DNA of 33,972 bases from a virus: positions 1 to 33,972 of the IMG/VR virus record IMGVR_UViG_3300046722_000061. The stretch is one strand, 5' to 3'. This document shows, piece after piece, positions 1 to 20,071 of this stretch. Under the pieces are notes generated by a model, which worked only from the letters and a program-made list of their open reading frames with translations, made no database searches and had not been told where the DNA came from. The position numbers and the translations under genes are program-made. Position 1 is the first letter of the stretch; each line of letters begins with the position of its first letter.

Positions 1-599
1 TCGCTGTTTGTAACGCAGATACCGCCCTCGCCTACCTGTAGATGCTTGTGGACGTTGAGCGAAAACACCCCGATATGGCCAACGGTACCAGCATAAATAC
101 TCTCTTCCTTGGCAAAGATGGCTTGGGCGTTATCCTCGATCAGATATACACCGAGCCCGTCGCAGATATCACGAAGTTCCCGTAAGTGAGCGGGATGACC
201 AAAAAGATTGGTAGCGATAACGGCCTTGGTTTTTCGAGTGATAGCATTGGACACTTCAACTGGATCGATGGTGAAGGTATCTGACTCGATATCCGCCCAA
301 ACGATGGTGGCGCCAAGTAACTTAGGTGCGGCGGCGGTTGCCGACATGGTATATGGGCTAACGATAACTTCATCTCCACGCTCCACGCCTATTGCCATGC
401 AGGCCGCCAGCAGGCCACTGGTGGCGCTATTGACGGCTACCGCATGCTTGACACCAAAGGTATGTGTCCACTCTCCCTCTAGCTTCATGCATTGATGGCC
501 GCCTATGGGACCAGAGCCGATGTATCCGGATAGTGGGCCATGAGCGGCCTCTTGAGCGGCGCCTATTTCCTCTTTACCAATCGTATTGAATTTTTTCAC
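1..599 (-). CDS. DegT/DnrJ/EryC1/StrS aminotransferase, PseC-like (partial, C-terminus cut by window edge)
   Basis: A sugar aminotransferase (PLP, fold type I) of the kind that aminates a 4-keto nucleotide sugar. I translated 199 codons from a GTG start at 599; the rest lies beyond the left edge. The fragment has the family signatures: the substrate and cofactor segment VNSATSGL near residue 57, the Asp of IEDNAQA near 156, and the PLP lysine at about residue 185 in FSLNVHKH followed by GEGG. The GTG overlaps the TGA of the upstream Tad2-like gene by four bases (GTGA), which fixes the start. Its neighbour is a PseB-like dehydratase, so a PseC role (UDP-4-amino-4,6-dideoxy sugar formation) is the natural inference. 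A legionaminic or other amino-sugar enzyme of the same family cannot be excluded. Confidence 0.88.
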   Translation of the reverse strand, partial: MKKFNTIGKEEIGAAQEAAHGPLSGYIGSGPIGGHQCMKLEGEWTHTFGVKHAVAVNSATSGLLAACMAIGVERGDEVIVSPYTMSATAAAPKLLGATIVWADIESDTFTIDPVEVSNAITRKTKAVIATNLFGHPAHLRELRDICDGLGVYLIEDNAQAIFAKEESIYAGTVGHIGVFSLNVHKHLQVGEGGICVTNS

Positions 600-889
600 G
601 CTAATTCCCAGTCCGCCGCCAGTAGGTCGGCCTGAGAGCATAACCAGCCCGGTTGCCATTGCTTCTTGGCGGTATACATTGCGATGTACGGTTGGCAGTC
701 GAGCGGCTGGTCTTCACCTATCCACTTAGCTGTACGATCATTGACCTTACGCTCAGTCCCTTGCGTGTTATAAGGCGGTAGTTTCAGTTGCGGCATAAGG
801 ACAATAAACATTCCCTTGCCGTTCCACCCAGTCCTGCGAACTGCAAGACCATTCTGCATTTGTTCAACAGCCCATCCAATTGTGTTCAT
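596..889 (-). CDS. DUF2829 / Tad2-like anti-Thoeris protein
   Basis: A 97-residue protein matching the DUF2829 pattern: an N-terminal helix, then GWNGKGMF at about residues 21-28, a hydrophobic strand ending LMP, and the C-terminal block PYIAMYTA ... PGWLCSQADLLAADWE. DUF2829 includes Tad2, a phage protein that binds and sequesters the glycocyclic ADP-ribose signal of Thoeris; some homologues also bind CBASS cyclic nucleotides. The length is usual for the family. ATG overlaps the PseB stop (ATGA) and its stop overlaps the next GTG, so it is translated as part of the sugar operon. Family assignment is by motif recognition. Anti-defence activity is inferred, since not all DUF2829 proteins have been tested. 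Confidence 0.82.
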   Translation of the reverse strand: MNTIGWAVEQMQNGLAVRRTGWNGKGMFIVLMPQLKLPPYNTQGTERKVNDRTAKWIGEDQPLDCQPYIAMYTAKKQWQPGWLCSQADLLAADWELA

Positions 890-1806
890 AGCATTCTCCT
901 TAAATCATCCACGCTCAGAAAGTGTTCGTTGGTATCGGAAGCATACCGGAAGCCCGGCTTGGTGTTATTGCTGGTATCCGGGTTCAGGATGTACCGATCC
1001 CACGCCTCCAACGCCAAATGACTCTCGTCATCCGTCAATAGGCACTCATGAAGCTTTTCCCCGGGCCTGATGCCGGTGACAACATGGGGACCCCCGGGGT
1101 CCATGGCTTCAGCCAAGTCCATGAGATGCATGGAGGGTATCTTGGGGATGAAAATCTCTCTGCCGTGCATCATCTCCGTAGAGCTAAGCACGAAGTCCAC
1201 AGCCTGATCCAAGGTCATCCAGAACCTTGTCATCCGTTGGTCTGTAATGGTCAGTGGTAGTTGTTTAGCAATGAGAGATTTGAATGCGGGTACGACACTA
1301 CCTCGGCTACCAACCACATTGCCATACCTAACCACGCTAAACTGCACGCGGCCAGCAGATAGATTGTTAGCAGCGACGAAAATCTTCTCTGCGGCAAGTT
1401 TGGTCGCCCCGTAGAGGTTGAGAGGGTTGACGGCCTTGTCTGTGGAGAGGGCGATGACTTTCGGAACTCCCGCAGCCATTGCGGCTCTACAAACATTCTC
1501 CGCTCCGTTGATGTTCGTCATAACGGCTTCAAAGGGATTGTACTCGCAAGTAGGCACTATTTTCATGGCAGCAGCGTGAACGACAAGGTCCACGCCTTGG
1601 GCGGCCATGGTCAGGCGGTGCACATCACGCACATCCCCTATCATAAAACGGAGGCGCTTGTCATCGAAACGACGGGCCATTTGTTCTTGTAAATATTCAC
1701 CTCGCGAATAGATCGCTATACGATCATAGAGGTCTTTTTTGAGAGCGTTAGCTACAAATGCCTGAGCAAAACTACCTGACCCTCCGGTCAACAATACAGA
1801 AGTCAT
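886..1806 (-). CDS. pseB: PseB-like UDP-N-acetylglucosamine 4,6-dehydratase
   Basis: An extended short-chain dehydrogenase/reductase of 306 residues. The PseB/FlaA1 family removes water from UDP-GlcNAc to give a 4-keto-6-deoxy sugar with C5 inversion, the first step to pseudaminic acid. Visible motifs are the NAD(P) loop TGGSGSFA at residues 7-14, the HAAAMK segment at 77-82, the catalytic run STDKAVNPLNLYGATK (T122, D123, K124, Y132, K136) and MTRFWMTLDQAV near 190. The third glycine of the usual nucleotide-binding motif is alanine here. Start and stop each overlap a neighbour by four bases. The family call is firm. Retaining dehydratases of the same fold (legionaminate or bacillosamine routes) are the main alternative. 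Confidence 0.9.
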   Translation of the reverse strand: MTSVLLTGGSGSFAQAFVANALKKDLYDRIAIYSRGEYLQEQMARRFDDKRLRFMIGDVRDVHRLTMAAQGVDLVVHAAAMKIVPTCEYNPFEAVMTNINGAENVCRAAMAAGVPKVIALSTDKAVNPLNLYGATKLAAEKIFVAANNLSAGRVQFSVVRYGNVVGSRGSVVPAFKSLIAKQLPLTITDQRMTRFWMTLDQAVDFVLSSTEMMHGREIFIPKIPSMHLMDLAEAMDPGGPHVVTGIRPGEKLHECLLTDDESHLALEAWDRYILNPDTSNNTKPGFRYASDTNEHFLSVDDLRRML

Positions 1807-2276
1807 GGGATCATCCTTGTGCCAAGGATGCGACCCTTAGCATCACGTATCATTACACGCTTGCCAGAGCGCCACTCTGATTTGCGCCTCTCGGAGATTA
1901 TCTTCAGTTTAGATTTTGTTTCTTTGGTTTTCTTTCTGGTCCAATGTTCATCCCCTCTTTTCAAGAGTTCTGGGTTATTTATTAGAACATTTTTACCTTT
2001 TTTGGTCCAATCCTGCATGTTGTCCTTTCCGGTTCCGATAAAGATATGATCAGGATTAACGCAAATGGGATTATCGCAGTGATGACACGCCATAAGTCCC
2101 TTTGGAATAAGTCCATTGGTTAACTCATATGAGACTCGGTGGGCGCCTTGACGCCTTCCATTTCTCCATACACGGCCATAGCCCTTACCATCGACGCCGC
2201 CCAGCCAGAGCCAGCAACCTTTACCTTTCCGAACCAAAGACCAGAAATATGGTTCAAATGGTCTCCACCGTGGCAT
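1803..2276 (-). CDS. HNH homing-type endonuclease
   Basis: A 157-residue free-standing HNH endonuclease of the common phage type. After the opening CWLWLGGVDGKGYGRV segment (about 21-36) comes the HNH core at residues 64-82 with Cys64, His65/66, Cys67, Cys72, Asn74 and His77, then GTGKDNMQDW. The C-terminal half is Lys/Arg-rich and probably binds DNA. I chose ATG at 2276 because it shares one base with the TAA of the upstream fusion gene (TAATG); an ATG at 2354 would add 26 atypical residues. It sits between the cytidylyltransferase fusion and pseB, where it has no obvious sugar role, so it is probably a selfish element lodged in the operon without breaking translational coupling. Confidence 0.88.
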   Translation of the reverse strand: MPRWRPFEPYFWSLVRKGKGCWLWLGGVDGKGYGRVWRNGRRQGAHRVSYELTNGLIPKGLMACHHCDNPICVNPDHIFIGTGKDNMQDWTKKGKNVLINNPELLKRGDEHWTRKKTKETKSKLKIISERRKSEWRSGKRVMIRDAKGRILGTRMIP

Positions 2277-4243
2277 TATCGAACCGATTTTCCCTGCACG
2301 ATACCGCCGTCCAGCTTCACGCCCCCAGCGATAGCCTTCAGGGTGGCGTCCCACGCGCTCAGCACGCGATCCAATTCTGGCTTTTTGTGGGCAGCGCAGG
2401 TGTTATGGCTGCCGATAATCAGGACGCCATTCTTGGCCATCTCCTGAATAAAGAGAGACTGGATAGTCTTATCGTCAAACTTGATCCGGTTCAGTTCTAC
2501 CTCTCCATAAAGCTGGATCGAGGAAATATTGTATGCTTTTAGTAACTCCCTAATCTCTTTCCGCAGGTAATTGCCAACCCGCTTTAGTTGCCGTGGAATA
2601 TCCAGCGTGTGGAGCTTGTCGATGGTGGCAATCGCGGCGGCGATGGACAGGGCTTCGCCAAAGAAGGTACCTGAGTAGGATATCTCTGGCATGCGGCTCA
2701 TGAATTCTCGCTTGCCTACCAGCGCGCTGATCGGCGTGCCGTTTGCCATGGCTTTGCCGAAGGTGGAGAGGTCCGGTGTTACCCCTACCACCTTCTGCAA
2801 GCCTCCCATTCCGCAACGGAAACCAGATATGATCTCGTCAAAGATCAGGATGATACCTCTGGCCGTGCAATCTCGCCGCATGATTTGCAACTCTCTCTGA
2901 GAGTAAAACTCAGGCTCGATAATGCAGGCCGCTATCTCCTCAGATGGCGTTCTTTGTTGGAAGGTGCAGCTTTGATCCCTAACCGGGGTTGGAATGCCTG
3001 AATTGCGTCCCTCGGTGTGAGCCAAAGACCAATCGTGCCATCCATGGTACCCTCCAACCATGATCTTATCACGCCCGGTAATATGACGAGCAAGGCGTAC
3101 AGCGGCGGTGGTTACATCTGATCCGTTTTTCCCAAACCTCGCCATTTCGGCAGACGGGATGTGAAAGCTGAGCCTTTCTGCAAGCTCTGTTTCAAGCGTT
3201 GTCGCAAGCGAGAACGAAATGCCGCGCGATAATTGGTCTCTAATGGCTTGATCAATATCAGGATCACGATAACCAAGAATATTAGGGAGAAGACCCCCAA
3301 CGAGATCAACATAGTCATTTCCGTCAACGTCATAGCAGTATCCTCCATCGCCATGAGTAAGAAATAAGGGTGCAGCCCCCTCCGGAAACTGCAATTTGGA
3401 TTTAGAAAAGGTCTGAGCCCCCAATGGTATAAGTTTCTCAGCCGCATCAAGGCAGGCCTTGGAATAACCATAGGTCCGTTTGACGCCGGTCTCGGCGGCT
3501 AGATCGGCATAATGCCGCTCGTTGCGGGTTAGACCCTCGATAGGTTCTCTCAACCACGGTTCTTCATCTAGGATAGCAAGAATGTCCAGATAGCTAGGAT
3601 GACTAATGCCACGCAGACCCAGCCTATGAGAAATCGCTGTAATGAAGGTGTGGTCTTGCGGGCTATCCAGAACCCACCTCTCCCTATCGAGCTTAGGTAG
3701 AGGACATACAAGGTTGGCGGCAGGGTAACGATGGCGATTACGGACCATAAAACGAGTGACAGTCTCCCTGTCGGTCCCTCTTGTCGCCTCGCGATGTGCA
3801 TCCTCCAGCGCAGCCCTCGTGAATACCTCAACGTCCAGTCCGTCAGGGTAAGTTGGAGGGTCGGTATTAGTGGCATAGGCAGCGTCCTTCATTTTGCGAA
3901 GCTGGATGACTTCGCCAATAACCTTGCTATCAAGGAAGGGGCAATCGCCGGTCAGGCGCACGACGATATCAGCGCCCGCGTCGGTCACGGCCTCCAGATA
4001 GCGCGAGAGTACATCCGTCTCGCTGCCTCTGAAGAACCTGACCTTACGACCCTTAGCCCAATCGGCTATCGGATCGTCTCCCGGCAACGTGGATGTAGCT
4101 ACAATTACCTCGTCTACGCCGGGAGCGCGTTCCGCAGCGCTTACCACCCAGTCCAGAGTTGGTCTACCGGAAATATCCATAAGGACTTTCCCGGGAAGTC
4201 TTGTGCTGCCCATTCTGGCTTGGCAAATAGCTATAGTCTTCAT
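2276..4243 (-). CDS. Fusion: SpsF/PseF-like cytidylyltransferase plus glutamate-1-semialdehyde-type aminotransferase
   Basis: A 655-residue two-domain protein. Residues 1 to about 250 are an SpsF/NeuA-like nucleotidyltransferase, with the CTP-binding signature QARMGSTRLPGKVL at 8-21 and RLTGDCPFLD at 96-105; the family activates nonulosonic or related acid sugars as CMP derivatives. Residues about 260-640 are a class III PLP aminotransferase of the GSA type, with GGYHGWHDW at 397-405, FDEIISGFRC at 468-477 and the PLP lysine at 497 in STFGKAM. The start overlaps the upstream 55-aa gene (ATGA). Both activities also occur as separate genes in flagellin and O-antigen sugar clusters. The fusion suggests they act in one pathway. 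The exact substrates cannot be read from sequence. Confidence 0.87.
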   Translation of the reverse strand: MKTIAICQARMGSTRLPGKVLMDISGRPTLDWVVSAAERAPGVDEVIVATSTLPGDDPIADWAKGRKVRFFRGSETDVLSRYLEAVTDAGADIVVRLTGDCPFLDSKVIGEVIQLRKMKDAAYATNTDPPTYPDGLDVEVFTRAALEDAHREATRGTDRETVTRFMVRNRHRYPAANLVCPLPKLDRERWVLDSPQDHTFITAISHRLGLRGISHPSYLDILAILDEEPWLREPIEGLTRNERHYADLAAETGVKRTYGYSKACLDAAEKLIPLGAQTFSKSKLQFPEGAAPLFLTHGDGGYCYDVDGNDYVDLVGGLLPNILGYRDPDIDQAIRDQLSRGISFSLATTLETELAERLSFHIPSAEMARFGKNGSDVTTAAVRLARHITGRDKIMVGGYHGWHDWSLAHTEGRNSGIPTPVRDQSCTFQQRTPSEEIAACIIEPEFYSQRELQIMRRDCTARGIILIFDEIISGFRCGMGGLQKVVGVTPDLSTFGKAMANGTPISALVGKREFMSRMPEISYSGTFFGEALSIAAAIATIDKLHTLDIPRQLKRVGNYLRKEIRELLKAYNISSIQLYGEVELNRIKFDDKTIQSLFIQEMAKNGVLIIGSHNTCAAHKKPELDRVLSAWDATLKAIAGGVKLDGGIVQGKSVR

Positions 4244-4407
4244 GTGGCCTTAGCTTCCTTTAGTAAGATTTCACCAAGTTTTAATGCCTGCTCTATCTCA
4301 AGGAACATCCATCCGGTACCATAATTGACACGGATCGATTTAATGCCGCCGTGTTCAACCACTTCAACCTCAATGTCCCTTTTATTCTTATGCTGGATAA
4401 GGATCAT
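4240..4407 (-). CDS. Small unknown protein, 55 aa
   Basis: A short gene found by reading the gap between the oxidoreductase and the fusion gene. ATG at 4407 overlaps the TGA of the upstream gene and the TGA at 4242-4240 overlaps the ATG of the next, both as ATGA. The protein starts MILIQHKNKRDIEVEVVEHG, continues with IKSIRVNYGTGWMF, and ends in an amphipathic Lys/Glu-rich helix. It looks like a compact beta-beta-alpha protein. I do not recognise the family. The two exact stop-start overlaps argue that it is genuinely translated, perhaps as a partner of one of the flanking sugar enzymes. Confidence 0.7.
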   Translation of the reverse strand: MILIQHKNKRDIEVEVVEHGGIKSIRVNYGTGWMFLEIEQALKLGEILLKEAKAT

Positions 4408-5309
4408 GGCTCTTTGTCCACCAATCCAGCCATTGATCTGACGGACAGGATTACGTCCAGCGCATCTGCTCCCTCTAGACCGGAGGCAAGAGCGTCAGTT
4501 TTGTTGATCTGGCCTTTATCGCAGGCCTTGATGAATTGCTTTATTTCCACAAGATAATTTTCATCCCAATTATCTCTCATCTGAGCGGTCTCAGAAACAA
4601 GAAGATTGGATAGCTTTATGGTGCGCGCCACCAAATCAACCTCGATTACTCCATTGGAGCCAACCAGCTTGTAACCTCGCCTCTCTGGCTCCGTGAGATA
4701 ATCCATGTGAATGGCAGAGAACGTTCCGCTGTCATGCTTCATGGAGAATTTCATCATAACGTCATTATCATCGATCTTCTGGCATTCGATGATCTCGGTG
4801 GCCTGCCCGGGTCCAAGCAGGTATAAAGCAAGATCGATCTCATGGGCGCCCCAGTTCCTAGATACCCCATCCCTCAGGTATGGCGCATTCTCGCTCTTCT
4901 GGAGAACCCAGAACTCAGCCCAGCCGATCTCGCCAATGAGATGCTTGGCCAGCATCTTCTTGGTTTCTATGACGCAATGATGAAAGCGCAGGTTATTTCC
5001 TACAGCCACGACTTGTCCCATAGTAGACTTGCCATGGCAGAAGCCGCGTACCGCTGGCGCTGGTGCATCAAATGCAATCGGCTTCTCCACAAAGATGTGC
5101 TTGCCGTGAGCGTCTACCATGTCCCTGAAATGCTCGCGAGTTGGCGTGCAGATGATGACGGCGTCTGATTGTTGTAAAACCTCTTCGCGGGTATGCTTGC
5201 CCGGCATCATGGGGTCATAGCCAATGACCTGATGGCCAAGGTACATCAGGTTCTTGCCATGGCGCGATCCAATGGAGCCAGCGAAGCCTAAGATGCCCAG
5301 TTTCAGCAT
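4404..5309 (-). CDS. Gfo/Idh/MocA-family oxidoreductase
   Basis: A 301-residue NAD(P)-dependent oxidoreductase acting on sugars or sugar acids. The N-terminal Rossmann domain begins LGILGFAGSIGSRHGKNL, and the EKP motif is at residues 75-77 in HIFVEKPIAF. In the C-terminal domain, GAHEIDLALYLLG (154-166) carries the usual catalytic/structural His and Asp. I start at 5309: the Rossmann strand then begins at residue 2 as usual and overlap with the upstream methyltransferase is seven bases. An ATG at 5330 would add MAIGGGA. Similar enzymes accompany SpsF-like and GSA-type genes in nonulosonate clusters, probably tailoring the sugar or a precursor. Confidence 0.87.
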   Translation of the reverse strand: MLKLGILGFAGSIGSRHGKNLMYLGHQVIGYDPMMPGKHTREEVLQQSDAVIICTPTREHFRDMVDAHGKHIFVEKPIAFDAPAPAVRGFCHGKSTMGQVVAVGNNLRFHHCVIETKKMLAKHLIGEIGWAEFWVLQKSENAPYLRDGVSRNWGAHEIDLALYLLGPGQATEIIECQKIDDNDVMMKFSMKHDSGTFSAIHMDYLTEPERRGYKLVGSNGVIEVDLVARTIKLSNLLVSETAQMRDNWDENYLVEIKQFIKACDKGQINKTDALASGLEGADALDVILSVRSMAGLVDKEP

Positions 5310-5920
5310 GGCGCCGCCTCCAATGGCCAACCGGCAGCGATATCCTTCTTGAGGACCCAGACTGCCGCGCCATCTTCAGTGGTTGTTTTATTCACCAATG
5401 AATAAGTTGGATTGGCAAGCCATAGCTTGCTATAATCCTGCTTGTACGACAATAAGCCCTCGGCGTGCCGATATGGGACGCTGTGTGGATGCTCTGGATC
5501 GAAATCATGGATAATGAGGTGACCCTTATCTCGCAGGACGCCATCTCCTATTGCGGCAATGCGCGAGAGCTTGTCTCTGTCGCACAAATAGAGACAAAAC
5601 CCATAGATCACCACATCGAACTCATTAGGAGGGAATTGGTGATTGGCGGTACCGCAAATGAAGTTAATATCATGGTATCGTTCACGGCCAACGGTAGTGG
5701 CTACGTCAGAGGGGTCAATGCCGGTACACTTGCAATCGTATAGGTTCTGAAGATCGAACAGATACCTGCCATCACCGCATCCTATTTCTAGGATGGATGA
5801 CGGCTCCGAGATATGATCGGCTATGATATGATTACGACGATAGATGCCCGGCTTATCCTTGTTGCGGGCATACCATTGATCGCCTTCGCCGTTTAGGAAC
5901 TCAGTTTCTTGTCGTCCCAT
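5303..5920 (-). CDS. SAM methyltransferase, pseudaminic-acid-associated methylase type
   Basis: A 205-residue class I SAM methyltransferase. Motif I is SSILEIGCGDGRYLF at residues 41-55, followed by the acidic strand end CTGIDPSD and motif IV-like FDVVIYGFCLYL. The N-terminus, TEFLNGEGDQWYARNKDK (6-23), resembles the characteristic opening (TEQEKFW.GEFG.EYI.RN) of methylases annotated as associated with pseudaminic acid biosynthesis. That supports a role in methylating the sugar or its amino substituent. A GAGG about eight bases upstream of ATG at 5920 is a good ribosome binding site. It overlaps the gene before it by 28 bases. The methyltransferase fold is firm; the specific subfamily is by resemblance. 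Confidence 0.82.
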   Translation of the reverse strand: MGRQETEFLNGEGDQWYARNKDKPGIYRRNHIIADHISEPSSILEIGCGDGRYLFDLQNLYDCKCTGIDPSDVATTVGRERYHDINFICGTANHQFPPNEFDVVIYGFCLYLCDRDKLSRIAAIGDGVLRDKGHLIIHDFDPEHPHSVPYRHAEGLLSYKQDYSKLWLANPTYSLVNKTTTEDGAAVWVLKKDIAAGWPLEAAPC

Positions 5921-6759
5921 GTACCAGCCTCGTTTTTCAAAACAAACAGGAAGTTAGGTGAACAGGCATAATACTCACCCATTGTGGGCAATTGTGAGGC
6001 GATAGCATTGATGGTGTGATTATAATCAGGCTTGATCTTCTGATCCTCGCACATCTTGGCGTAGATCAAGCGTGAGGCGATGTAATACATATTACCGATG
6101 TTTTCGACATATTCCGGAGTTAGAAGACTGCCTTTTATTCCATCAAGAAACTTCATCAGGTCTTGTTGCGGTAAATAGTGATTATGCCAAGGTGGCTTGA
6201 TCTGGCTTAAGCCAAGCTTGACGCGAAGCTGGTTAAGGTTATCCAGCCCCTCCTGAACGTTCTCCACCAGAACCATCTTGCCTTCCGGCGCGAGTAACTT
6301 ACGCATTTCCAAGATGCCGACCTTCTGCTCCTCCCAATTGGCTAGATTGATCAAGCACCGGGAGCTAAGCACCACGTCATACTTCTGGCCAAGCAGATGC
6401 TTGTTGCGTGAGAGAGATAGAACATCACCCTCGAAAAATTCCACATTCGGCACGACCTTCTTCATGGCTTCCGAGATCATGGCGCCAGAGAAATCAATGC
6501 CCGTAATCATCGCGTCAGGAAATTTCTTGGCCAACTCCAGCGTGGTATAACCATTGCCGCAGCCAACATCCAAGATGGTCTCATGCGGAACGGCCTCGAT
6601 CACACGCTTGATGCTGTCGATCTCCAAGGTCCGATAATGATGATCCGGCGCGGTCGCCAGATCGGAGCCACCATGCTTCTTGGCCTGCTCCTGCCAAAAC
6701 TCGTAAACGTCACCCGGATTTTTTGAGGGAGATGATTTGCGCTTCGCGGTATTTGCCAT
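5893..6759 (-). CDS. Class I SAM-dependent methyltransferase
   Basis: A methyltransferase of 288 residues from ATG at 6759. Motif I is TILDVGCGNGYTTLEL (61-76), followed by TGIDFSGAMI, the Gly-Asp strand EGDVLSL and a motif IV region YDVVLSSRCLINL. The N-terminal FWQEQAKKHGGSDLA segment is common in methyltransferases of surface-sugar clusters. I prefer 6759 over the ATG at 6786 because AGAGGA lies upstream and the overlap with the acetyltransferase falls to 50 bases. No later start would keep the conserved N-terminus, so the overlap is real. The C-terminal third (about 180-288) is likely the acceptor-binding part. Substrate unknown; probably the same glycan as the rest of the operon. Confidence 0.85.
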   Translation of the reverse strand: MANTAKRKSSPSKNPGDVYEFWQEQAKKHGGSDLATAPDHHYRTLEIDSIKRVIEAVPHETILDVGCGNGYTTLELAKKFPDAMITGIDFSGAMISEAMKKVVPNVEFFEGDVLSLSRNKHLLGQKYDVVLSSRCLINLANWEEQKVGILEMRKLLAPEGKMVLVENVQEGLDNLNQLRVKLGLSQIKPPWHNHYLPQQDLMKFLDGIKGSLLTPEYVENIGNMYYIASRLIYAKMCEDQKIKPDYNHTINAIASQLPTMGEYYACSPNFLFVLKNEAGTWDDKKLSS

Positions 6760-7255
6760 AGAATAATGCGTCCTCTGGTTTTCCATTAAGCAGGCAATGG
6801 CCGCCCAATGTAGCTTCGTATCTAAACTTCTGCTTTTCCAATAGCCGGATCATGCCTTGATTGCATGCCATGCACCCGGCCTCGATCTTGCGGCACCCTT
6901 CCTCAAACAAGAATTGGCAGACCGCATCCCAAGCCTCGGACGCATAGCCATGTCCCCATAGCCGGGGATTGCCTATCATGACGCCTACATTGGCGATCCT
7001 ATTTGGAATGTCGCGATAGGCTGTAATGCTGCCGATGGGCACCCCAGTACGCTGGATTTCCCAGAAATAGTTTTCCGAGTCCACGAATGAACTTAGATAC
7101 TCGTACTGGGTCTCATTGGTATGGGTAAGGTGCCGCTGTTCGGAATACTTGGTGACCGTCTCGTCGCTAAGCCATCGCAGGTAATGATCCAGTGGCATGT
7201 TGTCATGCACGATTGGGAACGCCAGCGTGAGCCGGGCTGTCTTGATGGTAGGCAT
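6710..7255 (-). CDS. GNAT acetyltransferase, RimJ-like; candidate sugar N-acetyltransferase
   Basis: A 181-residue GNAT protein of the Acetyltransf_3 type. The acetyl-CoA loop is RLWGHGYASEAW at residues 98-109, preceded by the strand NVGVMIG; the C-terminal CNQGMIRLLEKQKFRYEA is the usual last helix and strand. PseH, which acetylates the 4-amino group of the pseudaminate precursor, is also a GNAT, and the position in the operon suggests that role, but sequence alone cannot separate it from a ribosomal-protein-like or other sugar acetyltransferase. Its ATG shares a base with the TAA of the upstream gene (TAATG). Confidence 0.83.
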   Translation of the reverse strand: MPTIKTARLTLAFPIVHDNMPLDHYLRWLSDETVTKYSEQRHLTHTNETQYEYLSSFVDSENYFWEIQRTGVPIGSITAYRDIPNRIANVGVMIGNPRLWGHGYASEAWDAVCQFLFEEGCRKIEAGCMACNQGMIRLLEKQKFRYEATLGGHCLLNGKPEDALFYGKYREAQIISLKKSG

Positions 7256-7428
7256 TACTTCTTCACCGGCTTTGGCTGCTGGCTTATGGCGTGATCGATC
7301 AGTCCACGCATGTTGCTGAGCAACAGGATCATATGCTTGGCGTTGGCGTCAAACTCTCCGAGCGCGTAGCGTTCGTTCAGAGCCTCGTCAACATCATCCC
7401 GCAATTCCAGCAATTCTTTCTTATTCAT
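7255..7428 (-). CDS. Small unknown protein, 56 aa
   Basis: Begins MNKKELLELRDDVDEALNER and is predicted mostly helical, with a second helix MILLLSNMRGLIDHAIS and a basic tail KPVKK. I set the start at 7428, where ATG overlaps the upstream TGA by four bases; an in-frame ATG at 7476 would add an unconvincing 16-residue leader lying inside the upstream gene. I do not recognise the family. A two-helix small phage accessory protein is all that can be said. Confidence 0.68.
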   Translation of the reverse strand: MNKKELLELRDDVDEALNERYALGEFDANAKHMILLLSNMRGLIDHAISQQPKPVKK

Positions 7429-7664
7429 GGTCCCTTGATCTCCAAGGTCTCGATGGCGTTTCGCACCAATTCCCACGCCCCATCGTCTCGGAAGTGGATT
7501 ACGTTGTCTTGGTATAATCCAGCCTTCTTTGGGGAAAGATCGATGCAGCCATATTCATGGGCCTCTCCGCATGGACCTTTGTTGAAGATATCCAGCCTGC
7601 CGATTTCATATGCCCTGTCTTCGTCACCAAACGGAACGACCTGTAGCGTTACTCTGAGGACCAT
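7425..7664 (-). CDS. Conserved-looking unknown phage protein, 79 aa; first gene of the minus-strand operon
   Basis: Starts MVLRVTLQVVPFGDEDRAYE and ends WELVRNAIETLEIKGP. The pattern (a hydrophobic beta-strand, 'PFGDE', a central beta region, then 'G.W.LV..A') resembles small proteins of unknown function that I recall from phages and prophages of Alphaproteobacteria. It is the first gene after the divergent control region. The mRNA has GGGAGG followed by a run of G before the ATG, a strong though unusually G-rich ribosome binding site. No function can be assigned. Confidence 0.72.
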   Translation of the reverse strand: MVLRVTLQVVPFGDEDRAYEIGRLDIFNKGPCGEAHEYGCIDLSPKKAGLYQDNVIHFRDDGAWELVRNAIETLEIKGP

Positions 7665-7755: not shown

Positions 7756-9417
7756 ATGACAGAAGCCTTTCTAAGATCGGAGAAAATCCAGCGGGTATCG
7801 CTGGCGGCCCGAAAGCTGCGTGAGAAGCAGGAAGCCAAAGCCTATGAGGGCAACCTAATTGATTTTGTCGAATATGTATGGCCTGTGGTCGAACCGGCCA
7901 TCCCCTTCGTCAAGGGCTGGGTGCTTTCGGCCATTGCCGAGCATCTTCAGGCGGTAACCAAGGGTGAGATAAGAAGACTCTTAATTAACGTGCCTCCGGG
8001 CTTTACAAAAAGCCTGTTGACCGATGTGTTCTGGCCCGCGTGGGAGTGGGGGCCTCAATCCAGACCATGGTACCGGTACATCTGCGCCTCTTACTCCAAC
8101 CATCTGACCGAGCGCGATAACATGCGCTGCCGCAATGTGGTCCTATCGGATCGCTATCAGCGGCTTTGGGGCAACCGTTTCCGGATATCCAACGAGCAGT
8201 TTACCAAGGTCAAGTTTGCCAATGACCGTACCGGCTGGAAGCTGGCCACGTCCACGGGCGGTATCGGCGTAGGTGAGCGCGGTGACAGGTTCATCATCGA
8301 TGACGCCAATAACACCATGCTGATGGAGTCGGAGGCCGTCCGATACACCACCAATATGTGGTTCACGGAAGTCGTGCCAGACCGATTGAACAACCCCAAG
8401 GAAAGCGCAATTGTCGTTATACAACAAAGACTTCACGAAGAAGACGTATCCGGCGTGGCTCTGGATCGTGATCTGGGCTACACTCATTTGTGCGTTCCTA
8501 TGGAGTACGTCCCCCATGGTTTCGTGAATGGCTATGACGTAAACGGCAAGATCAAGACCTTTGATACGTGGGACCCCGACTGGGATACCACTGAGATGGT
8601 CAAGGAGTTCTGGAGGGACCCCAGAACGGAGGACGGCGAGCCCGCGTGGCCTGAGCGGTTCAGACAAGAAGAAATTGCCGAACTAAAGAACGCCAAAGGT
8701 CCCTATGCGTGGGCTGGCCAATACCAGCAGACCCCGGAAGTCAGGGGCGGTTCGATTATCCGGCGCGAATACTGGAACAACTGGGAAGCCGATAAGTATC
8801 CGGAGAATATTGAGTATATTCTGGCCTCTGTAGACACCGCCTATACAGAAAAACAGGCCAACGACGCCTCTGCATTAACAATCTGGGGCGTGTTCAGGGA
8901 TATCAATAATAACCCCAAAATCATCCTGATGCATTCTTGGCAGGAAAGACTGGAAATTCATAAGCTTGTTCAGAAACTTATAGATAGTTGCACGAGGGAC
9001 AACCGAGAGGTTGCGGGGCCCCGGTTTCAGGTCGATAGGCTCTTAATTGAGGCCAAGGCTTCTGGCTTGTCGGTAAGCCAAGAGATAAGGAGAATACTTG
9101 GCTTCAACGGTAAATTCGGTATAGAGCTAATAAACCCGACGAAACAAGGAGATAAGGTGGCTCGTGCCCATAGTGTCCTGCATCTATTTTCTGACGGGAT
9201 GATTTATACCCCGACCTCGCGGAAATGGGCCTCTGATGTCATCGATCAGTGTGCGATCTTTCCCAACGGCTCTCATGATGACTTGGTTGACTCCACCACT
9301 ATGGCACTCCGGTTCCTGCGGGATAATGGGCTAGCCGCGCGGCGGGAGGAGAGCGAATTTGATCAGGAGGAGGAACTGAAGTACCGTCCTCGCGCACGCG
9401 CCCTCTATCCGTGCTAG
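7756..9417 (+). CDS. terL: Terminase large subunit
   Basis: A 553-residue DNA-packaging motor. The ATPase half has a Walker A-type loop VPPGFTKS at residues 79-86, Walker B FIIDD at 179-183 and the coupling region TNMWFTEVVPDRL. The nuclease half has Asp360 in LASVDTAY, LLIEAKASG near 434 and the terminal acidic motif SHDDLVDS at 506-513 (Asp508/509/512). It translocates DNA through the portal and cuts the concatemer. The length is typical. No Shine-Dalgarno sequence precedes the ATG, and the N-terminus before the conserved PFVKGW region is Lys/Arg-rich. The terminase small subunit is not recognisable nearby. Confidence 0.95.
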   Translation: MTEAFLRSEKIQRVSLAARKLREKQEAKAYEGNLIDFVEYVWPVVEPAIPFVKGWVLSAIAEHLQAVTKGEIRRLLINVPPGFTKSLLTDVFWPAWEWGPQSRPWYRYICASYSNHLTERDNMRCRNVVLSDRYQRLWGNRFRISNEQFTKVKFANDRTGWKLATSTGGIGVGERGDRFIIDDANNTMLMESEAVRYTTNMWFTEVVPDRLNNPKESAIVVIQQRLHEEDVSGVALDRDLGYTHLCVPMEYVPHGFVNGYDVNGKIKTFDTWDPDWDTTEMVKEFWRDPRTEDGEPAWPERFRQEEIAELKNAKGPYAWAGQYQQTPEVRGGSIIRREYWNNWEADKYPENIEYILASVDTAYTEKQANDASALTIWGVFRDINNNPKIILMHSWQERLEIHKLVQKLIDSCTRDNREVAGPRFQVDRLLIEAKASGLSVSQEIRRILGFNGKFGIELINPTKQGDKVARAHSVLHLFSDGMIYTPTSRKWASDVIDQCAIFPNGSHDDLVDSTTMALRFLRDNGLAARREESEFDQEEELKYRPRARALYPC

Positions 9418-9425
9418 GGACCTAG

Positions 9426-12236
9426 ATGGCCACAAACACAGACCCTATTAGATTACCGGACCTCAACGAGGCGAATAATCCCTTCTCGTTGCCATCTACT
9501 ATTGATTTAGGGCCTAATAATGGCAGTACGACGACTATTCAGAACGGCGCCGCCAAGACCGAGAACCCGGACGGCTCTCTGACGATTGATTTCTCCCCCA
9601 AATCCATCAAGCAGCCCAAGGGGGACTGGTTTTCCAATCTGGCCGACGAAATAGACGAAGGCGAGCTTTCCCGCATCGCCAATGACCTTCTGGACGGCAT
9701 TAATCTTGATGATATCTCCCGTAAGGATTGGCTAGACACCCGGGCGCGCGGTATCGGCCTGCTTGGCTTAAAGCTGAATGAGCCCAAAGGAGAGGCTACC
9801 TCAGAGGGCGTCTCGACCGTCCAACATCCTCTTCTATTGGAAGCCACCTTACGGTTTCAGGCCAATGCCCGTGGCGAGCTTCTTCCTGCCGCTGGTCCGG
9901 TCAAAGTCCGGAATGACGCGCCTACCCCTCCTAAATTACCTCCCGCACCACCAATGCCGCCTCAAATGGGCCATAATGGCGGTCCACCGTTAGGTGGGGC
10001 TGGCGGACAACAGCCTGCTGGCGGCGCCCCGTTGACAGGGGCTATGCCCGGCATGGGAGGGGGACCACCTCCCGGGCCGTCCGCTGCTCCACCTATTCCA
10101 ATCCCGCCCACCCCGTCCGCAGGTGTAGGCGGGCCAGCAGGAGGTCCACCGCCTCCACCTCCCCCGGCTACTGGTGCTGGGCCTCCTGCTCCTCCTCCGA
10201 CTGGTCTGATGGCGCCGCCAAAGCCCGTGATCCCGGGTGGCATGTCCACGGCCTCTGACGATCTTGCTGAAGCCCTCGAAACCGACATGAACCACTGGCT
10301 GACCGCCGTGGCGACGGAATACTATCCGGATACCGACCGGATGCTGTTCTGGGTGGGGTGTGGCGGCCAAGGCATCAAGAAGGTCTATAACTGCCCGATC
10401 CGACGCCGACCGGTGTCTGAGAGCGTTGATGCTGAAGACCTGATTGTCTCCAACGCCGAAACCAATCTGGAAAACTGCACCCGTGTTACGCACCGCATCA
10501 AGATGCCGCCCTCTTGGCTAAAACGGATGCAGTTGGTAGGCGCCTATCGAGATATCGATATCACCAGCACGCAGATGATGCTGCCCGATCCCGTTAAGGA
10601 TAAGAAGCAGGAAATTCAGGGTATTAGCCCCCATCCTCAGCGTCCCAAAGATGCCGATCACGAAATCTATGAATGCTATTGCGAACTGGATATCGCCGGT
10701 TTCGAGCATAAAGAGCGTGGCAAGGAAACAGGCCTCCAACTCCCCTACGTTGTCACTATCCATAAAGAGAGTAGGCAGATTTTGGCCCTGCGCCGTAACT
10801 GGCGCAAAGACGATAAGATGTGTCTGGCCAAGGAATACTTCGTGGACTTTGCGTTCGTCAAAGCCCTTGGCTTCTACGGTATCGGCCTTATCCATATTCT
10901 GGGAAACACCACCAGCGCCCTGACCGCCGCATGGCGCATCCAGCTTGACGCTGGCATGTTCTCGTCGTTTCCCGGCTTCATCTACGCCAAGCAGTTTGGC
11001 AGGCAGCTTACCAATCAATTCCGGGTACCGCCCGGGGGCGGTGTCCCCATCGATACAGGTGGTCTACCAATCAATCAGGCGATTATGCCGCTGCCATATA
11101 AAGAGCCCGGCAGCGCCTTCATGCAGCTTACCCAGAATATAGAGACATTGGGCCAGCGCGTTGGTGGCACCGCCGAGATGCAGATAGGGGAGGGCAAGCA
11201 GGACGCCCCGGTTGGCACCACGCTAGCCCTGATCGAGCAGGCCACCAAAACCATGGACGCTGTTCATAAGCGTCTTACCTCTGCACAGGCCAAGGAATTT
11301 GGCCTTCTCAAGGAACGGTTCAAGGAAGACCCGGAAGCCTTCTGGCGACATGCGTCCAAGCAGACCATGCGCTGGGAAAAGGTCCAATTCTTGGAAGCGC
11401 TTGAACACAACAACCTTGTCCCGGTTGCTGACCCGAACAACCCCACCTCCATGCACCGCATTGCCAAGGCGGTTGTCATCAAGACGCTTCAGCAGGGCGC
11501 CCCCGATCTCTATGATCCAATTGCGGTCGATACGCGGATTATGCGGATCGCTGGTATCGATCCTGAGGGCCTGTTCAGGGCTACCCCGGCACCTCCTCCG
11601 CCGGACCCGTCTTTGATCGCCGCTCAGGCTAAGCAGCAAGCCAACCAACTTGCCCAACAAAGCCAGCAACTCCAGATGCAAATCAAACTGAAGATCGCGC
11701 AGCTTCAGTCGCAAGACAAAATGCAGGACCGGGCTTCGCGCGAGAAGGCCGAACAACTGAAAATCATGCTGGAGAGACTGAAGATACAGGAAGAAACCAT
11801 TATCCACCGTGACCAAGCGCATCACGATATGCAGCTAGAGGCCACGAGGATGCTGATGGATCATCACCGGGCTCAGGCCGAAAGCCAGAACGATATTGCC
11901 ATCCAGCGGCAGCAGAGCGCTGCCGATCTCCAGCAGCAGCAGCAGGAAAACGCCGCCGACCAGCACCTAAAGACGGGTGGCATGGTCATGGACGCGATGC
12001 GAGATCAGGCCGCGCATCAGCAGGAAATGGCGCTCCAACGGGACAAGCACGAGCGCGAATTGGCCCATAAGCATGCGATGGCTCAACAGGACCTAGACCA
12101 TAAGCACGCCATGGCCAAATTCGAGATGGAGCATAAGGAGAGACTGTCCAAGATCGATGGTGACAACAAGATCAGGGTGGCCAAGGCTACGGCCAAGTTC
12201 AAACCGAAACCCAAGCCAGCGGCGAAGAAGAAATGA
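9426..12236 (+). CDS. Portal protein with Pro/Gly-rich insertion and long coiled-coil tail
   Basis: At 936 residues it is long for a portal. It lies directly after terL, and its core resembles portals of podovirus-like phages: an N-terminal part to about 165 (ending LRFQANARGELLPAAG), then DMNHWLTAVATEYYPDTDRM, TRVTHRIKMPPSWLKRM, a stem/clip region, and FPGFIYAKQF with NQFRVPPGGG. Residues about 166-272 are a low-complexity Pro/Gly/Ala insertion with a run of seven prolines. From about 727 to the end lies a Gln/Lys/His-rich coiled coil, probably the barrel extending into the head. It forms the dodecameric DNA gate. The stop overlaps the next ATG. The portal call rests on position, size and motif resemblance. 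Confidence 0.88.
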   Translation: MATNTDPIRLPDLNEANNPFSLPSTIDLGPNNGSTTTIQNGAAKTENPDGSLTIDFSPKSIKQPKGDWFSNLADEIDEGELSRIANDLLDGINLDDISRKDWLDTRARGIGLLGLKLNEPKGEATSEGVSTVQHPLLLEATLRFQANARGELLPAAGPVKVRNDAPTPPKLPPAPPMPPQMGHNGGPPLGGAGGQQPAGGAPLTGAMPGMGGGPPPGPSAAPPIPIPPTPSAGVGGPAGGPPPPPPPATGAGPPAPPPTGLMAPPKPVIPGGMSTASDDLAEALETDMNHWLTAVATEYYPDTDRMLFWVGCGGQGIKKVYNCPIRRRPVSESVDAEDLIVSNAETNLENCTRVTHRIKMPPSWLKRMQLVGAYRDIDITSTQMMLPDPVKDKKQEIQGISPHPQRPKDADHEIYECYCELDIAGFEHKERGKETGLQLPYVVTIHKESRQILALRRNWRKDDKMCLAKEYFVDFAFVKALGFYGIGLIHILGNTTSALTAAWRIQLDAGMFSSFPGFIYAKQFGRQLTNQFRVPPGGGVPIDTGGLPINQAIMPLPYKEPGSAFMQLTQNIETLGQRVGGTAEMQIGEGKQDAPVGTTLALIEQATKTMDAVHKRLTSAQAKEFGLLKERFKEDPEAFWRHASKQTMRWEKVQFLEALEHNNLVPVADPNNPTSMHRIAKAVVIKTLQQGAPDLYDPIAVDTRIMRIAGIDPEGLFRATPAPPPPDPSLIAAQAKQQANQLAQQSQQLQMQIKLKIAQLQSQDKMQDRASREKAEQLKIMLERLKIQEETIIHRDQAHHDMQLEATRMLMDHHRAQAESQNDIAIQRQQSAADLQQQQQENAADQHLKTGGMVMDAMRDQAAHQQEMALQRDKHERELAHKHAMAQQDLDHKHAMAKFEMEHKERLSKIDGDNKIRVAKATAKFKPKPKPAAKKK

Positions 12237-12445
12237 CCCAGCCAGCGCAGCTAGACCTATCTAATCTTGTGCTTTTGAAGGATTTTTTGCCTCTTTATCC
12301 AATTGGGACTACAGTAAGGCTGAAATCGGGCAGTCCGATACTAACCGTGACAGCCATTATCGAGGGTCATGCCGAAGTTCAGTGGTTTGAGGGCCGGGAG
12401 GCCAGACAGAAGATTTACCCCGTAGCCGCGCTAGAGAAAGATTAG
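12233..12445 (+). CDS. DUF2158-like small protein
   Basis: A 70-residue protein. Residues about 24-67 (TVRLKSGSPILTVTAI ... AEVQWFEGREARQKIYPVAALE) match the pattern of the DUF2158/YodC-type small beta-barrel family: V.LKSGGP.MTV, then WF.G..... F...L. The molecular function of that family is unknown to me. It is coupled to the portal gene by an ATGA overlap. Confidence 0.72.
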   Translation: MTQPAQLDLSNLVLLKDFLPLYPIGTTVRLKSGSPILTVTAIIEGHAEVQWFEGREARQKIYPVAALEKD

Positions 12446-12448
12446 TCC

Positions 12449-12628
12449 ATGGCTAAACTTCACATGCAGGAATGCCATACCAGCGGTCGCGAGAAGATGG
12501 CCAAGGTCTCTGGCTCGCCCAAGAATTTCGAGAGCCAAGCCGACAAGGCTGAGCGGTTCTGCCGTGGCGGCTACAAGGACGGTGGGGCTTGCGGTCAATC
12601 TCCCTATGACGACGAAGGCAAGGAATAG
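12449..12628 (+). CDS. Small Gly/Cys-containing unknown protein, 59 aa
   Basis: Read directly between the DUF2158-like gene and the next ORF. It starts MAKLHMQECHTSGREKM and contains FCRGGYKDGGACGQS near residues 37-51, ending YDDEGKE. Three cysteines (9, 38, 48) and the RGG segment tie it to a set of small RGG/KGG-containing proteins in this genome. Start at 12449; the stop at 12626-12628 is shortly before the next ATG. It could be a minor virion component. Not recognised as a named family. Confidence 0.68.
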   Translation: MAKLHMQECHTSGREKMAKVSGSPKNFESQADKAERFCRGGYKDGGACGQSPYDDEGKE

Positions 12629-12632
12629 ATAA

Positions 12633-13160
12633 ATGGCGCATCCGTATCGTGATCAGGCCCACTCTTCCCATAAGACCAAGACTGGAAATATGGGAAAGAT
12701 GAACAATCTGGATATCCCGGTCATGCGGGCGGTTGGAGAGAATAAATCCGGCGCCCCCCACGTCAGTCATTCCAGCATGCAGCATATGAAGCAGGCTGGC
12801 GCTGATGGCATGAAGCGTGGCGGTCATGTGGGCAAGCCCAAGCACCACAAGCCAAAAGTTGTAATAGCGGCCCCTGCCCCGGACCCGGCTACTCCTCCCA
12901 TGCCCGATCCAGCTATGGCCGCTGCTGGAGCGGGCGCCTCACCTGCTCCAGCGCCTATGGGGCCTCCGCCGATGCAGAAGCGTGGCGGCGCGGTTCACTC
13001 CGACGAGAAGGCGGATAGGGCGCTGATCGATAAAATGGTGAAACCCAGCGCCAGATATGCCCGTGGCGGCAAGGTGACCGGCCAAAAGGGCGGCGCCGAT
13101 ACCGGAGAGGGGCGGCTGAATAAAATCAAGATGTACGGATTGAAGCCCATCAAGGGGTAA
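12633..13160 (+). CDS. Basic, Pro/Ala-rich protein with RGG motifs
   Basis: A 175-residue low-complexity protein. The His/Met/Lys-rich N-terminus (SHSSMQHMKQAGADGMKRGG) is followed by a Pro/Ala linker (about 78-112) and a basic C-terminus. Three RGG motifs occur: MKRGGHVG, QKRGGAVH and YARGGKVTG. AGGA lies before the ATG. Such proteins are often found among phage head genes without known function; a minor or internal virion protein is my guess. The composition makes homology inference unreliable. Confidence 0.75.
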   Translation: MAHPYRDQAHSSHKTKTGNMGKMNNLDIPVMRAVGENKSGAPHVSHSSMQHMKQAGADGMKRGGHVGKPKHHKPKVVIAAPAPDPATPPMPDPAMAAAGAGASPAPAPMGPPPMQKRGGAVHSDEKADRALIDKMVKPSARYARGGKVTGQKGGADTGEGRLNKIKMYGLKPIKG

Positions 13161-16112: not shown

Positions 16113-17027
16113 ATGCCCGTCGCACTCGCGCAAATCAAAGACCTCCTGCTCCCCGGCTTGTGGGGCGTGTCGGGCAAGTACGATCAGATCGAGCGTCAGT
16201 GGCCCAAGCTCTTCAAGACCACTGACTCCAAGATGGCGCTGGAGCGTAGGGCTTCCATGCGCTACCTCGGTCTTGCTCAGTTGAAGCAAGAGGGTGGTGT
16301 TACCGCATTCGATAACGCCGCTGGCCAGCGCTATATCTACAACCAAGAGCATAACGAAATCGGGCTGGGTTACGCCATTACCCGCAAAGCCATCGATGAC
16401 AACCTGTACAAGGCAGAGTTTGGACCCTCCAACGATGGTCTGATGGCCTCCTTCCAACAGACTGAGGAAATCTACGGCGCCAACGTGTTCAACACGGGCT
16501 CCGTCTTCAACCAGAACGTAGGTGGCGACGGTCAGGCGCTCTTTAGCACCGCCCATCCCATCGATGGCAATACCATCGGTAACCGTCCCTCTGTGGACGT
16601 GGACCTGAACGAAACCTCGTTGCTCAATGGCGGTATCGCCGTTCGCTCAACGTGGCGGGATAACGCGGGCCTGAAGATGTACGCCCGCGCAAGGAAGTGC
16701 GTTATTCCGACCCAGCTTGAGCCGGTCGCGCTTCGTCTATTCCGCAGCGAGCTTCGCCCGGGAACCACGACCAACGATGTCAACGCCATCCTCGGCATGA
16801 ATGACTCCTTCAAGGAAGGCTTCATCGTCAACGACTACCTGACGAGCGGCTTTGCTTGGTTCCTGCTCACCAACGTTGACGGCCTGATCTTCATGAACCG
16901 TATCCCGTTTGAGATGGATATGTCCGTGGAGTTCACCACCGACAACCTGCTCGTGAAGGGCTACCAGCGGTATAGCTTCGGCTATTTCGACTGGCGCTCG
17001 GTCTGGGGCACGTTCCCGCTGTCTTAA
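16113..17027 (+). CDS. Major capsid protein, Mu gpT-like
   Basis: A 304-residue protein of the Mu major head subunit (gpT) type, expected to have the HK97 fold. Recognisable blocks are AITRKAIDDNLY with a following long helix, the DGQALFSTAHPIDG motif, NETSLLNGGIAVRS, the strand CVIPTQLEPVALRL, LRPGTTTNDVNAI, and the terminal FDWRSVWGTF. Strong AAGGAG precedes the ATG. Proteolytic maturation is not obvious; the protein lacks a long N-terminal delta-domain, consistent with a separate scaffold gene upstream. The assignment is secure at family level. Confidence 0.92.
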   Translation: MPVALAQIKDLLLPGLWGVSGKYDQIERQWPKLFKTTDSKMALERRASMRYLGLAQLKQEGGVTAFDNAAGQRYIYNQEHNEIGLGYAITRKAIDDNLYKAEFGPSNDGLMASFQQTEEIYGANVFNTGSVFNQNVGGDGQALFSTAHPIDGNTIGNRPSVDVDLNETSLLNGGIAVRSTWRDNAGLKMYARARKCVIPTQLEPVALRLFRSELRPGTTTNDVNAILGMNDSFKEGFIVNDYLTSGFAWFLLTNVDGLIFMNRIPFEMDMSVEFTTDNLLVKGYQRYSFGYFDWRSVWGTFPLS

Positions 17028-18796: not shown

Positions 18797-20071
18797 ATGA
18801 GCGACAACCTTACGGTACTCAACTCTACTGGCGGAACCGCCACCATTCGTATGCGGGATACGACTGGGAGCAGCGGCCCGCTGGCTAATATGTCCATTCC
18901 CACGGATACCGCTGGCAATGCCATGATGGTCTTGCCCGGGGCTGCGGTTACCTCGACCGCTCAGGGCGCCGCCGTTGTGGTCGTCTCCTCCTTATCGCCA
19001 AGCCATACAGTCACGCTTTCCTCAAATCCAACGGTTATTCCATCCTCGGCCATTCAGGTCACTCTGACCAGCAATACGGTAGCCCTGTCTTCCAATCCCA
19101 CCGTTCTTCAGGGTGTTACTCCGTGGGTTACGAGCCTGACGACTGCGGCGGGCGCTAATACCATCACGCTGTCGTCTGCCATTTCGGCCACTACGGTTAT
19201 TTCCTCGGCTTTGTCGGTAACCCCGACCAGCGCAATAGTTGTTACGCTGTCCACGGCGGCTGGCGCCAATACGGTTACCTTGTCTTCTGCCATTAATGCC
19301 ACGGCTACCTTCTCGTCAGGCACGTTCACGCCTTCATCCAATCTAACAGTGACCCCATCTAGTAACTTCACGGTAATTCTATCCTCCAACCCGACGATTA
19401 CATCGCTATCATCCGGCACCATTGTCGTATCCAACGGTACGAATATTGCTAACGTCATAGCAGGGTCCTCAACCGTCACTTCCACTATGGCGGCGCTGGT
19501 AGTCGCCATGTCGTCCAATGGGGCTGGCATTATCGCCACGGGTACTCAGGCCTCCCCAGCATCTCAATATCTTTCTGTAATATCCGCAGGCGATATCGCC
19601 AGCGGCGTGCTTGACACCGGCAACCCTGTCAAGATCGGCGGCCTTTACAATTCCACCAATCCAACATCGGTAACGTCAGGCCAGCGCGTCAATGCTTGGT
19701 TTGATAAATCCGGAAAACAAATCGTTAATAGCGCACTGCGATCCCTTAAGGGAATTACTCTCACTGCCATTTCGTGCAGCGCCACCGAAACAAATATCAC
19801 CCCATCGAGTACGGGCGGTAACTTTATTGATCTATACGGACTGGTTATTGCCAATCAAAGTTCCGCCAACGTACAAACAGTAACCATTAAGGACTCTTCT
19901 GGAGGAACGGCAAGGTCCATCTTCCAAGTTCCGGCAAACGAAACCAGAGGGTTCATGGGGCCAGTAGACGCGGCATGGGTTCAGTCGGCATCAAGCCAAG
20001 CGTGGACTGCGACGGCAAGCAATTCAAGTGGAGCGTTGCAGATAACCACGCTCTACGTCACCAATCTCTAA
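18797..20071 (+). CDS. Long Ser/Thr-rich repeat protein, putative virion fibre/decoration, 424 aa
   Basis: The N-terminus (MSDNLTVLNSTGGTATIRMR) and C-terminal domain (about 270-424, ending LQITTLYVTNL) appear globular and beta-rich. Between them, about residues 60-240, is a repeat region built from units such as LSSNPTV (three near copies) and AAGANTITLSSAI / AAGANTVTLSSAI. It is one of the most Ser/Thr-rich products here. It probably forms an extended beta structure on the virion. No enzyme motif. It is a plausible O-glycosylation acceptor given the sugar operon, but this is a hypothesis. Confidence 0.72.
   Translation: MSDNLTVLNSTGGTATIRMRDTTGSSGPLANMSIPTDTAGNAMMVLPGAAVTSTAQGAAVVVVSSLSPSHTVTLSSNPTVIPSSAIQVTLTSNTVALSSNPTVLQGVTPWVTSLTTAAGANTITLSSAISATTVISSALSVTPTSAIVVTLSTAAGANTVTLSSAINATATFSSGTFTPSSNLTVTPSSNFTVILSSNPTITSLSSGTIVVSNGTNIANVIAGSSTVTSTMAALVVAMSSNGAGIIATGTQASPASQYLSVISAGDIASGVLDTGNPVKIGGLYNSTNPTSVTSGQRVNAWFDKSGKQIVNSALRSLKGITLTAISCSATETNITPSSTGGNFIDLYGLVIANQSSANVQTVTIKDSSGGTARSIFQVPANETRGFMGPVDAAWVQSASSQAWTATASNSSGALQITTLYVTNL

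Follow-up and report, generated by a model that had tools for sequence, protein, structure and literature searches.

The IMG/VR record IMGVR_UViG_3300046722_000061 (all 33,972 bases, hereafter the window) carries at its left end an operon of sugar biosynthesis genes, divergent from the gene of the terminase large subunit (TerL), and in its head gene region a gene for a GT42-like protein. We consider it probable that this phage encodes a pseudaminic-type nonulosonic acid pathway feeding the GT42-like transferase, which would glycosylate virion proteins. The reading rests on the gene set, the presence of a PseI gene in relatives, conservation of the operon, co-occurrence with the GT42-like gene, the fold similarity of the encoded protein and its location among capsid genes. 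More tentatively, an unnamed family of GT42-like proteins, encoded among the capsid genes of several unrelated phage groups, could decorate virions with nonulosonic acids from phage-encoded pathways independent of PseC and PseG. Loci compared with the window are designated by L-numbers (L001, L007 etc.), and the window proteins were mapped on all of them.

Operon genes and phage context

A preliminary description, made from the sequence of the window, had listed a PseB-like dehydratase, a PseC-like aminotransferase, an SpsF/GSA fusion, a Gfo/Idh/MocA enzyme, a GNAT acetyltransferase and a pseudaminate-associated methylase. Genes for all of these exist on the minus strand of positions 1-7255, divergent from TerL at 7756, and all are intact save the aminotransferase, which is cut by the edge of the record. 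An HNH endonuclease gene and a Tad2-like gene that interrupt the operon had gone unlisted. Curated NCBIfam cutoffs (in bits) were 407.75 for PseB (TIGR03589), 423.5 for PseC (TIGR03588), 340.25 for PseI (TIGR03586), 112.05 for TIGR03587, 475 for LegB and 399.65 for NeuB_NnaB.

3-659, minus strand: DegT/DnrJ/EryC1 aminotransferase of the DegT-2 clade, 3' end lost at the contig end (PF01041, 2e-48)
596-889, minus strand: Tad2-like gene with a Thoeris anti-defence domain (PF11195, 7.6e-22)
886-1806, minus strand: PseB, inverting UDP-N-acetylglucosamine (UDP-GlcNAc) 4,6-dehydratase (TIGR03589, 415.9 bits)
1803-2354, minus strand: HNH endonuclease, mobile, inserted in the operon (PF13392, PHROG 1872)
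2276-4243, minus strand: N-terminal SpsF-type cytidylyltransferase fused to a C-terminal class-III GSA-like aminotransferase (PF02348 and PF00202)
4404-5330, minus strand: Gfo/Idh/MocA sugar oxidoreductase (PF01408)
5303-5920, minus strand: S-adenosylmethionine-dependent methyltransferase MT2 (PF08241, 6.4e-13)
5893-6786, minus strand: S-adenosylmethionine-dependent methyltransferase MT1 (PF13649, 1.9e-18)
6710-7255, minus strand: GNAT acetyltransferase (PF13302, 5.1e-19)
7255-7476, minus strand: small conserved gene heading the operon (43-64% in relatives, same place)
7756-9417, plus strand: TerL, divergent neighbour of the operon (PHROG 38, 3.2e-82)

The cluster belongs to the phage, and the module marks a clade. 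A search with the SpsF-GSA fusion yielded 10 viral contigs in which it is encoded over its full length (49-70% identity); 10 phage relatives of the fusion show 51-72%. A search with TerL recovers this contig family too, and in at least 25 independent contigs from many metagenomes the genes follow one another in this order and diverge from TerL at an identical junction. No operon was seen beside TerL in TerL relatives under 50% identity. Metabolic genes that lie at the end of a contig, and on the other strand, could suggest that host DNA was wrongly joined to phage DNA near 7.7 kb, the error against which the preliminary description had cautioned. This explanation can practically be dismissed, since recurrence of the junction in 25 contigs excludes both misassembly and chance, and phage-type genes lie on the opposite strand past PseI in L007 and L010. 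Three other TerL-bearing viral contigs (L016, L021 and L029) have separate SpsF, PseB and GSA genes and a short NeuB gene, so that nonulosonate modules are evidently found in several lineages of phages.

Reading away from TerL, the operon comprises the small gene, GNAT, the two methyltransferases, Gfo/Idh/MocA, SpsF-GSA, HNH, PseB, the Tad2-like gene and DegT, and the catalytic motifs of its enzymes are intact. PseB exceeds its cutoff and carries the TDKAVNPLNLYGATK motif. The PDB matches of the SpsF-GSA fusion are GSA aminomutase and sugar C-6' aminotransferases, and the Gfo/Idh/MocA enzyme scores 70.6 bits, under the cutoff, on the UDP-GlcNAc 3-dehydrogenase model NF040723. There are two methyltransferases where a pseudaminate-associated methylase had been listed, and the match to that family is weak (30.9 bits on TIGR03587). 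MT1 is absent from some relatives; in one of these, L052, the operon includes a formyltransferase gene. This would fit a variable glycan on which such genes serve to cap an amino or hydroxyl group. The window's GNAT is a generic one with no NCBIfam match to PseH, and may have a PseH-like role.

The left end of the record falls inside the aminotransferase gene and truncates the operon there; the true start of this gene is probably near 600, and the lysine motif of its product is HKHLQVGEGG. In L001 and L007 pseB and the aminotransferase gene adjoin without a Tad2-like gene between them, so this gene is probably an insert and not part of the sugar pathway. L042 (near 2692) and L043 (near 5289) have related genes immediately behind TerL. 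The HNH endonuclease insert is present in L005 too and missing from most relatives. A second HNH endonuclease gene lies at 24981-25490 (plus strand), and in relatives HNH positions shift within the same regions. No tRNA-based hint of the host was found.

PseI, aminotransferase and type of sugar

A NeuB/PseI gene lies next to the cluster in seven phages of the clade (L001, L002, L003, L006, L007, L008 and L010), directly after the aminotransferase gene in L007 and L010. On the PseI model the L007 synthase passes the cutoff with 349.1 bits, and that of L010 falls below it with 310.8. In the window PF03102 found no PseI, the record ending within the aminotransferase gene. Of the two left-flank homologues that the preliminary description had suggested looking for, PseI was thus recovered, in relatives, and PseG was not. 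A conserved small open reading frame of about 60-100 amino acids adjoins the DegT gene and, in most relatives, separates it from the PseI gene (e.g. L003:14195-14410, L008:14677-14892 and L057:3262-3456).

The type of sugar had been left undetermined in the preliminary description. On the scores of PseB and PseI, the product is more likely to be of the pseudaminic than of the legionaminic type. A legionaminic pathway was rejected, with 51 bits on LegB and, for the synthases of L007 and L010, 240-252 bits on NeuB_NnaB, far under the respective cutoffs. The pathway is nevertheless not the canonical Pse pathway, because neither a true PseC nor PseG was found. Of the canonical set PseB is present, PseC and PseG were not detected, and the SpsF-type PF02348 domain, a putative cytidylyltransferase, may take the part of PseF.

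The aminotransferase previously described as PseC-like is a DegT enzyme of another kind. Its full-length relatives reach just 162-171 bits with the model of PseC, far from the cutoff, whereas PseC from the Burkholderiales cluster L170 scores 549.7 bits. In the tree the phage aminotransferases form one clade within a second DegT group (DegT-2), outside the PseC clade, and identity with PseC was therefore rejected. This second group is carried by L170, L173 and L196, in the first two beside a true PseC. It is accompanied by a GNAT and, in L170 and L173, by a Gfo enzyme too. DegT matches are missing altogether from several further viral contigs that encode PseB, GSA and NeuB, and it is possible that the GSA domain performs the PseC step.

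The nearest counterparts of the phage cluster are those of Methanoregula (L201), Burkholderiales (L170), Bacteroidales (L238) and Leptospirales (L173), of the type PseB-PseC-(aldo-keto reductase or Gfo)-SpsF-GSA-PseGH-PseI. PseB, SpsF, GSA, Gfo and PseI are common to phages and to these bacterial and archaeal nonulosonate clusters, SpsF and GSA are fused in L170 as in the phages, and L173 has homologues or counterparts of nearly every phage gene, including MT1, MT2, DegT-2 and GNAT. Unlike these clusters, that of the phages adjoins TerL and has no PseC, PseG or aldo-keto reductase. The shared enzyme set supports a nonulosonic-acid-like pathway in the phage. This part of the preliminary description is upheld and strengthened by the PseI of relatives, the recurrent junction and the matching clusters.

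The GT42-like gene and the capsid genes

The second element of the proposed system lies among the head genes, with the following neighbours:

16113-17027, plus strand: major head protein (PHROG 371, 1.5e-12)
18797-20071, plus strand: Ser/Thr-rich (32%) protein in a variable capsid-associated region, candidate acceptor (composition; homologue in L138)
20788-23187, plus strand: large Asp-box/BNR (sortilin-like) beta-propeller, encoded immediately before the transferase; candidate acceptor or receptor-binding protein (PF15902, PF02012)
23269-24090, plus strand: predicted CMP-nonulosonate transferase, GT42-like (CstII-like), among the head genes (profile and structure model)

The protein encoded at 23269-24090 has no Pfam or PHROGs family. 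With a profile built from 22 relatives, eight GT42 sequences top the PDB ranking, weakly (E 0.07-0.35). The best PDB match of its AlphaFold2 model (predicted local distance difference test score 80.6) is CstII (E 5.5e-6, probability 1.00, template modelling (TM) score 0.40-0.47). A separate model of the L012 family member, about 32% identical, has CstI or CstII at all of ranks 1-9 (TM-score 0.47-0.54 by query length); the alignments behind the two models share members, so that they are not fully independent. The phage transferase has in common with CstI and CstII a Thr-Ser...Gly-Ile/Val-Asp segment and the best fold matches of two divergent members, and differs from them in its low identity (about 15%), lack of recognition by Pfam and location in phage head gene clusters. 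By the best PDB matches of both models the predicted fold is that of GT42, without membership by sequence. We call the protein GT42-like and not a GT42 member, because it has no Pfam match and the profile reaches an E of only 0.07; transfer of a CMP-sugar is predicted from the models. No bacterial homologue was found in 398 Pseudomonadota genomes at 1e-8, in a search without positive control. In the cultured Microcystis phage Mvi-Yong1342-1 a homologue (L265:19902-20705; PP496355.1 34781-35584) adjoins the terminase genes and is annotated as a 'type 11 methyltransferase'.

Both NeuB and the transferase are present in 11 phage records, eight phages of the clade among them, whereas none of the 15 TerL relatives without the pathway module has either. 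The resulting distribution (8/0/0/15) gives a Fisher p of about 2e-6, which overstates the evidence owing to shared ancestry of the records. Clade contigs with just one of the two genes end before the other region. L018, L161 and L167 likewise have both, although in the loci compared no relationship of these phages to the capsid or portal genes of the window is detectable. In L012, L013 and L015 the nonulosonate operon stands between structural genes and includes the transferase gene, which in L012 overlaps the start of SpsF by a few bases. In L018 an MT2 homologue directly follows the transferase gene, and in L163, L167 and L015 this gene is near major head proteins of different PHROGs. The capsid protein (MCP) and p25775 are farther apart in the clade (3.9-11.8 kb) than in three module-free relatives (1.2-2.1 kb). 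The capsid-linked GT42-like gene had escaped the preliminary description, which left the purpose open between virion and host surface, and it tilts the balance toward the virion. The nonulosonate operon of L012 also contains formyltransferase-like (11884-12414) and PIG-L deacetylase-like (12383-12952) genes.

Proposed pathway, alternatives and known systems

In the proposed pathway, PseB would convert host UDP-GlcNAc to a 4-keto-6-deoxy UDP-sugar, which a pyridoxal phosphate enzyme (DegT or the GSA domain) would aminate and the GNAT acylate. PseI, which would be encoded just past the window, could then condense the sugar with phosphoenolpyruvate, and the SpsF domain would form the CMP-sugar. 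Gfo and the remaining aminotransferase may oxidize and aminate a further position, to be capped by the methyltransferases or, in one relative, the formyltransferase. Finally, the GT42-like protein would move the sugar onto Ser/Thr-rich capsid-associated proteins. We infer the order of substrates, the manner in which PseC and PseG are replaced, and the acceptor.

Several observations weigh against this model. No true PseC was found with the PseC model on relatives or in the tree. None of the 11 phage contigs, which may be fragments, has PseG, while the same search detects it in bacterial and archaeal comparison genomes; no PseG-type gene is among the window cluster proteins scanned either. Lacking PseG and a true PseC, the route to the free hexose for PseI is unexplained. 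L018 has, between pseB and the aminotransferase gene, a gene (3768-4088, minus strand) with weak resemblance to the nucleotide pyrophosphohydrolase MazG, and this gene might conceivably substitute for PseG. The TM-scores to GT42 are modest (0.37-0.54 over both models), and DUF115/MptE-like folds match the transferase weakly too, a signal that presumably reflects a related fold used by Maf flagellin glycosyltransferases. The transferase occurs without NeuB in L163 (a 48.6 kb fragment), and its homologue in Mvi-Yong1342-1 without annotated nonulosonate genes. Ser/Thr content was rejected as an acceptor marker, richness not being specific to pathway-bearing phages. The glycan itself is a prediction from the genes.

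The absence of PseC and PseG may also mean that the phage supplies branch enzymes only, diverting the nonulosonic acid pathway of a host in possession of both and re-decorating the host sugar, as bacterial clusters do hold PseC and PseG together with the phage-type enzymes. We regard this as rather unlikely, given that PseB and PseI, with which a host of this kind would already be equipped, are retained by the phages, and that the viral contigs with PseB, GSA and NeuB but no DegT match suggest functional replacement. It is a little less likely still that the sugar alters the host surface (lipopolysaccharide, capsule or flagellum), e.g. to block superinfection or change a receptor, the GT42-like enzyme acting on a host glycan or being unrelated. 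Known GT42 enzymes sialylate lipooligosaccharide, prophage-encoded acetyltransferases modify Acinetobacter capsule nonulosonic acids (PMC6586298), and the operon of the window clade stands outside the structural block. In L012, L013 and L015, however, pathway and transferase genes lie between structural genes, the transferase gene is beside capsid genes in several phage types, and no polysaccharide export, flippase or lipid-linked glycosyltransferase gene was recognized in the operon.

That the product is some other acidic or amino sugar appears very unlikely. The best PDB matches of DegT are varied sugar aminotransferases, and the Gfo, DegT and GNAT trio resembles the 3-amino UDP-sugar pathways of WbpB/WbpE/WbpD. 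On the other hand, PseI/NeuB adjoins the cluster in relatives with a PseI score over the cutoff, and SpsF-type transferases activate with CMP.

If virion glycosylation by a phage-encoded pathway is confirmed, phages would build a sialic-acid-like coat of their own, with possible consequences for adsorption and the stability of the particle, and for the way in which hosts, or animals that come into contact with phages, recognize it. A name would also be given to a protein family that at present has no annotation or, in the case of a cultured Microcystis phage, that of a methyltransferase. It also raises the biochemical question of how PseI obtains its substrate without PseG. A PseI-like gene is found in 3 of 50,697 deposited phage records, none of them an isolated phage of this kind, and no published report of a phage nonulosonate pathway was found in a literature of which our coverage is incomplete.

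Chloroviruses and mimivirus have capsid glycans with virus-encoded sugar pathways. They resemble the window phages in making their own nucleotide sugar and a capsid glycan (predicted for the phages) and differ in being viruses of eukaryotes with other sugars. Few phages are known to glycosylate their virions, and those by way of glycosyltransferases only. In mycobacteriophages (Che8, Rita and Maravista) phage-encoded glycosyltransferases decorate capsid proteins (PMC11256854), and only such enzymes are described, whereas the window phages have a dedicated sugar biosynthesis operon linked to the transferase. The phage-encoded acetyltransferases that modify Acinetobacter capsule nonulosonic acids (PMC6586298) likewise act on this class of sugar, yet as single enzymes on the host capsule and without biosynthesis. 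A virus-made virion glycan is in itself already known; what appears to be new is the pathway, its linkage and the family to which the transferase belongs.

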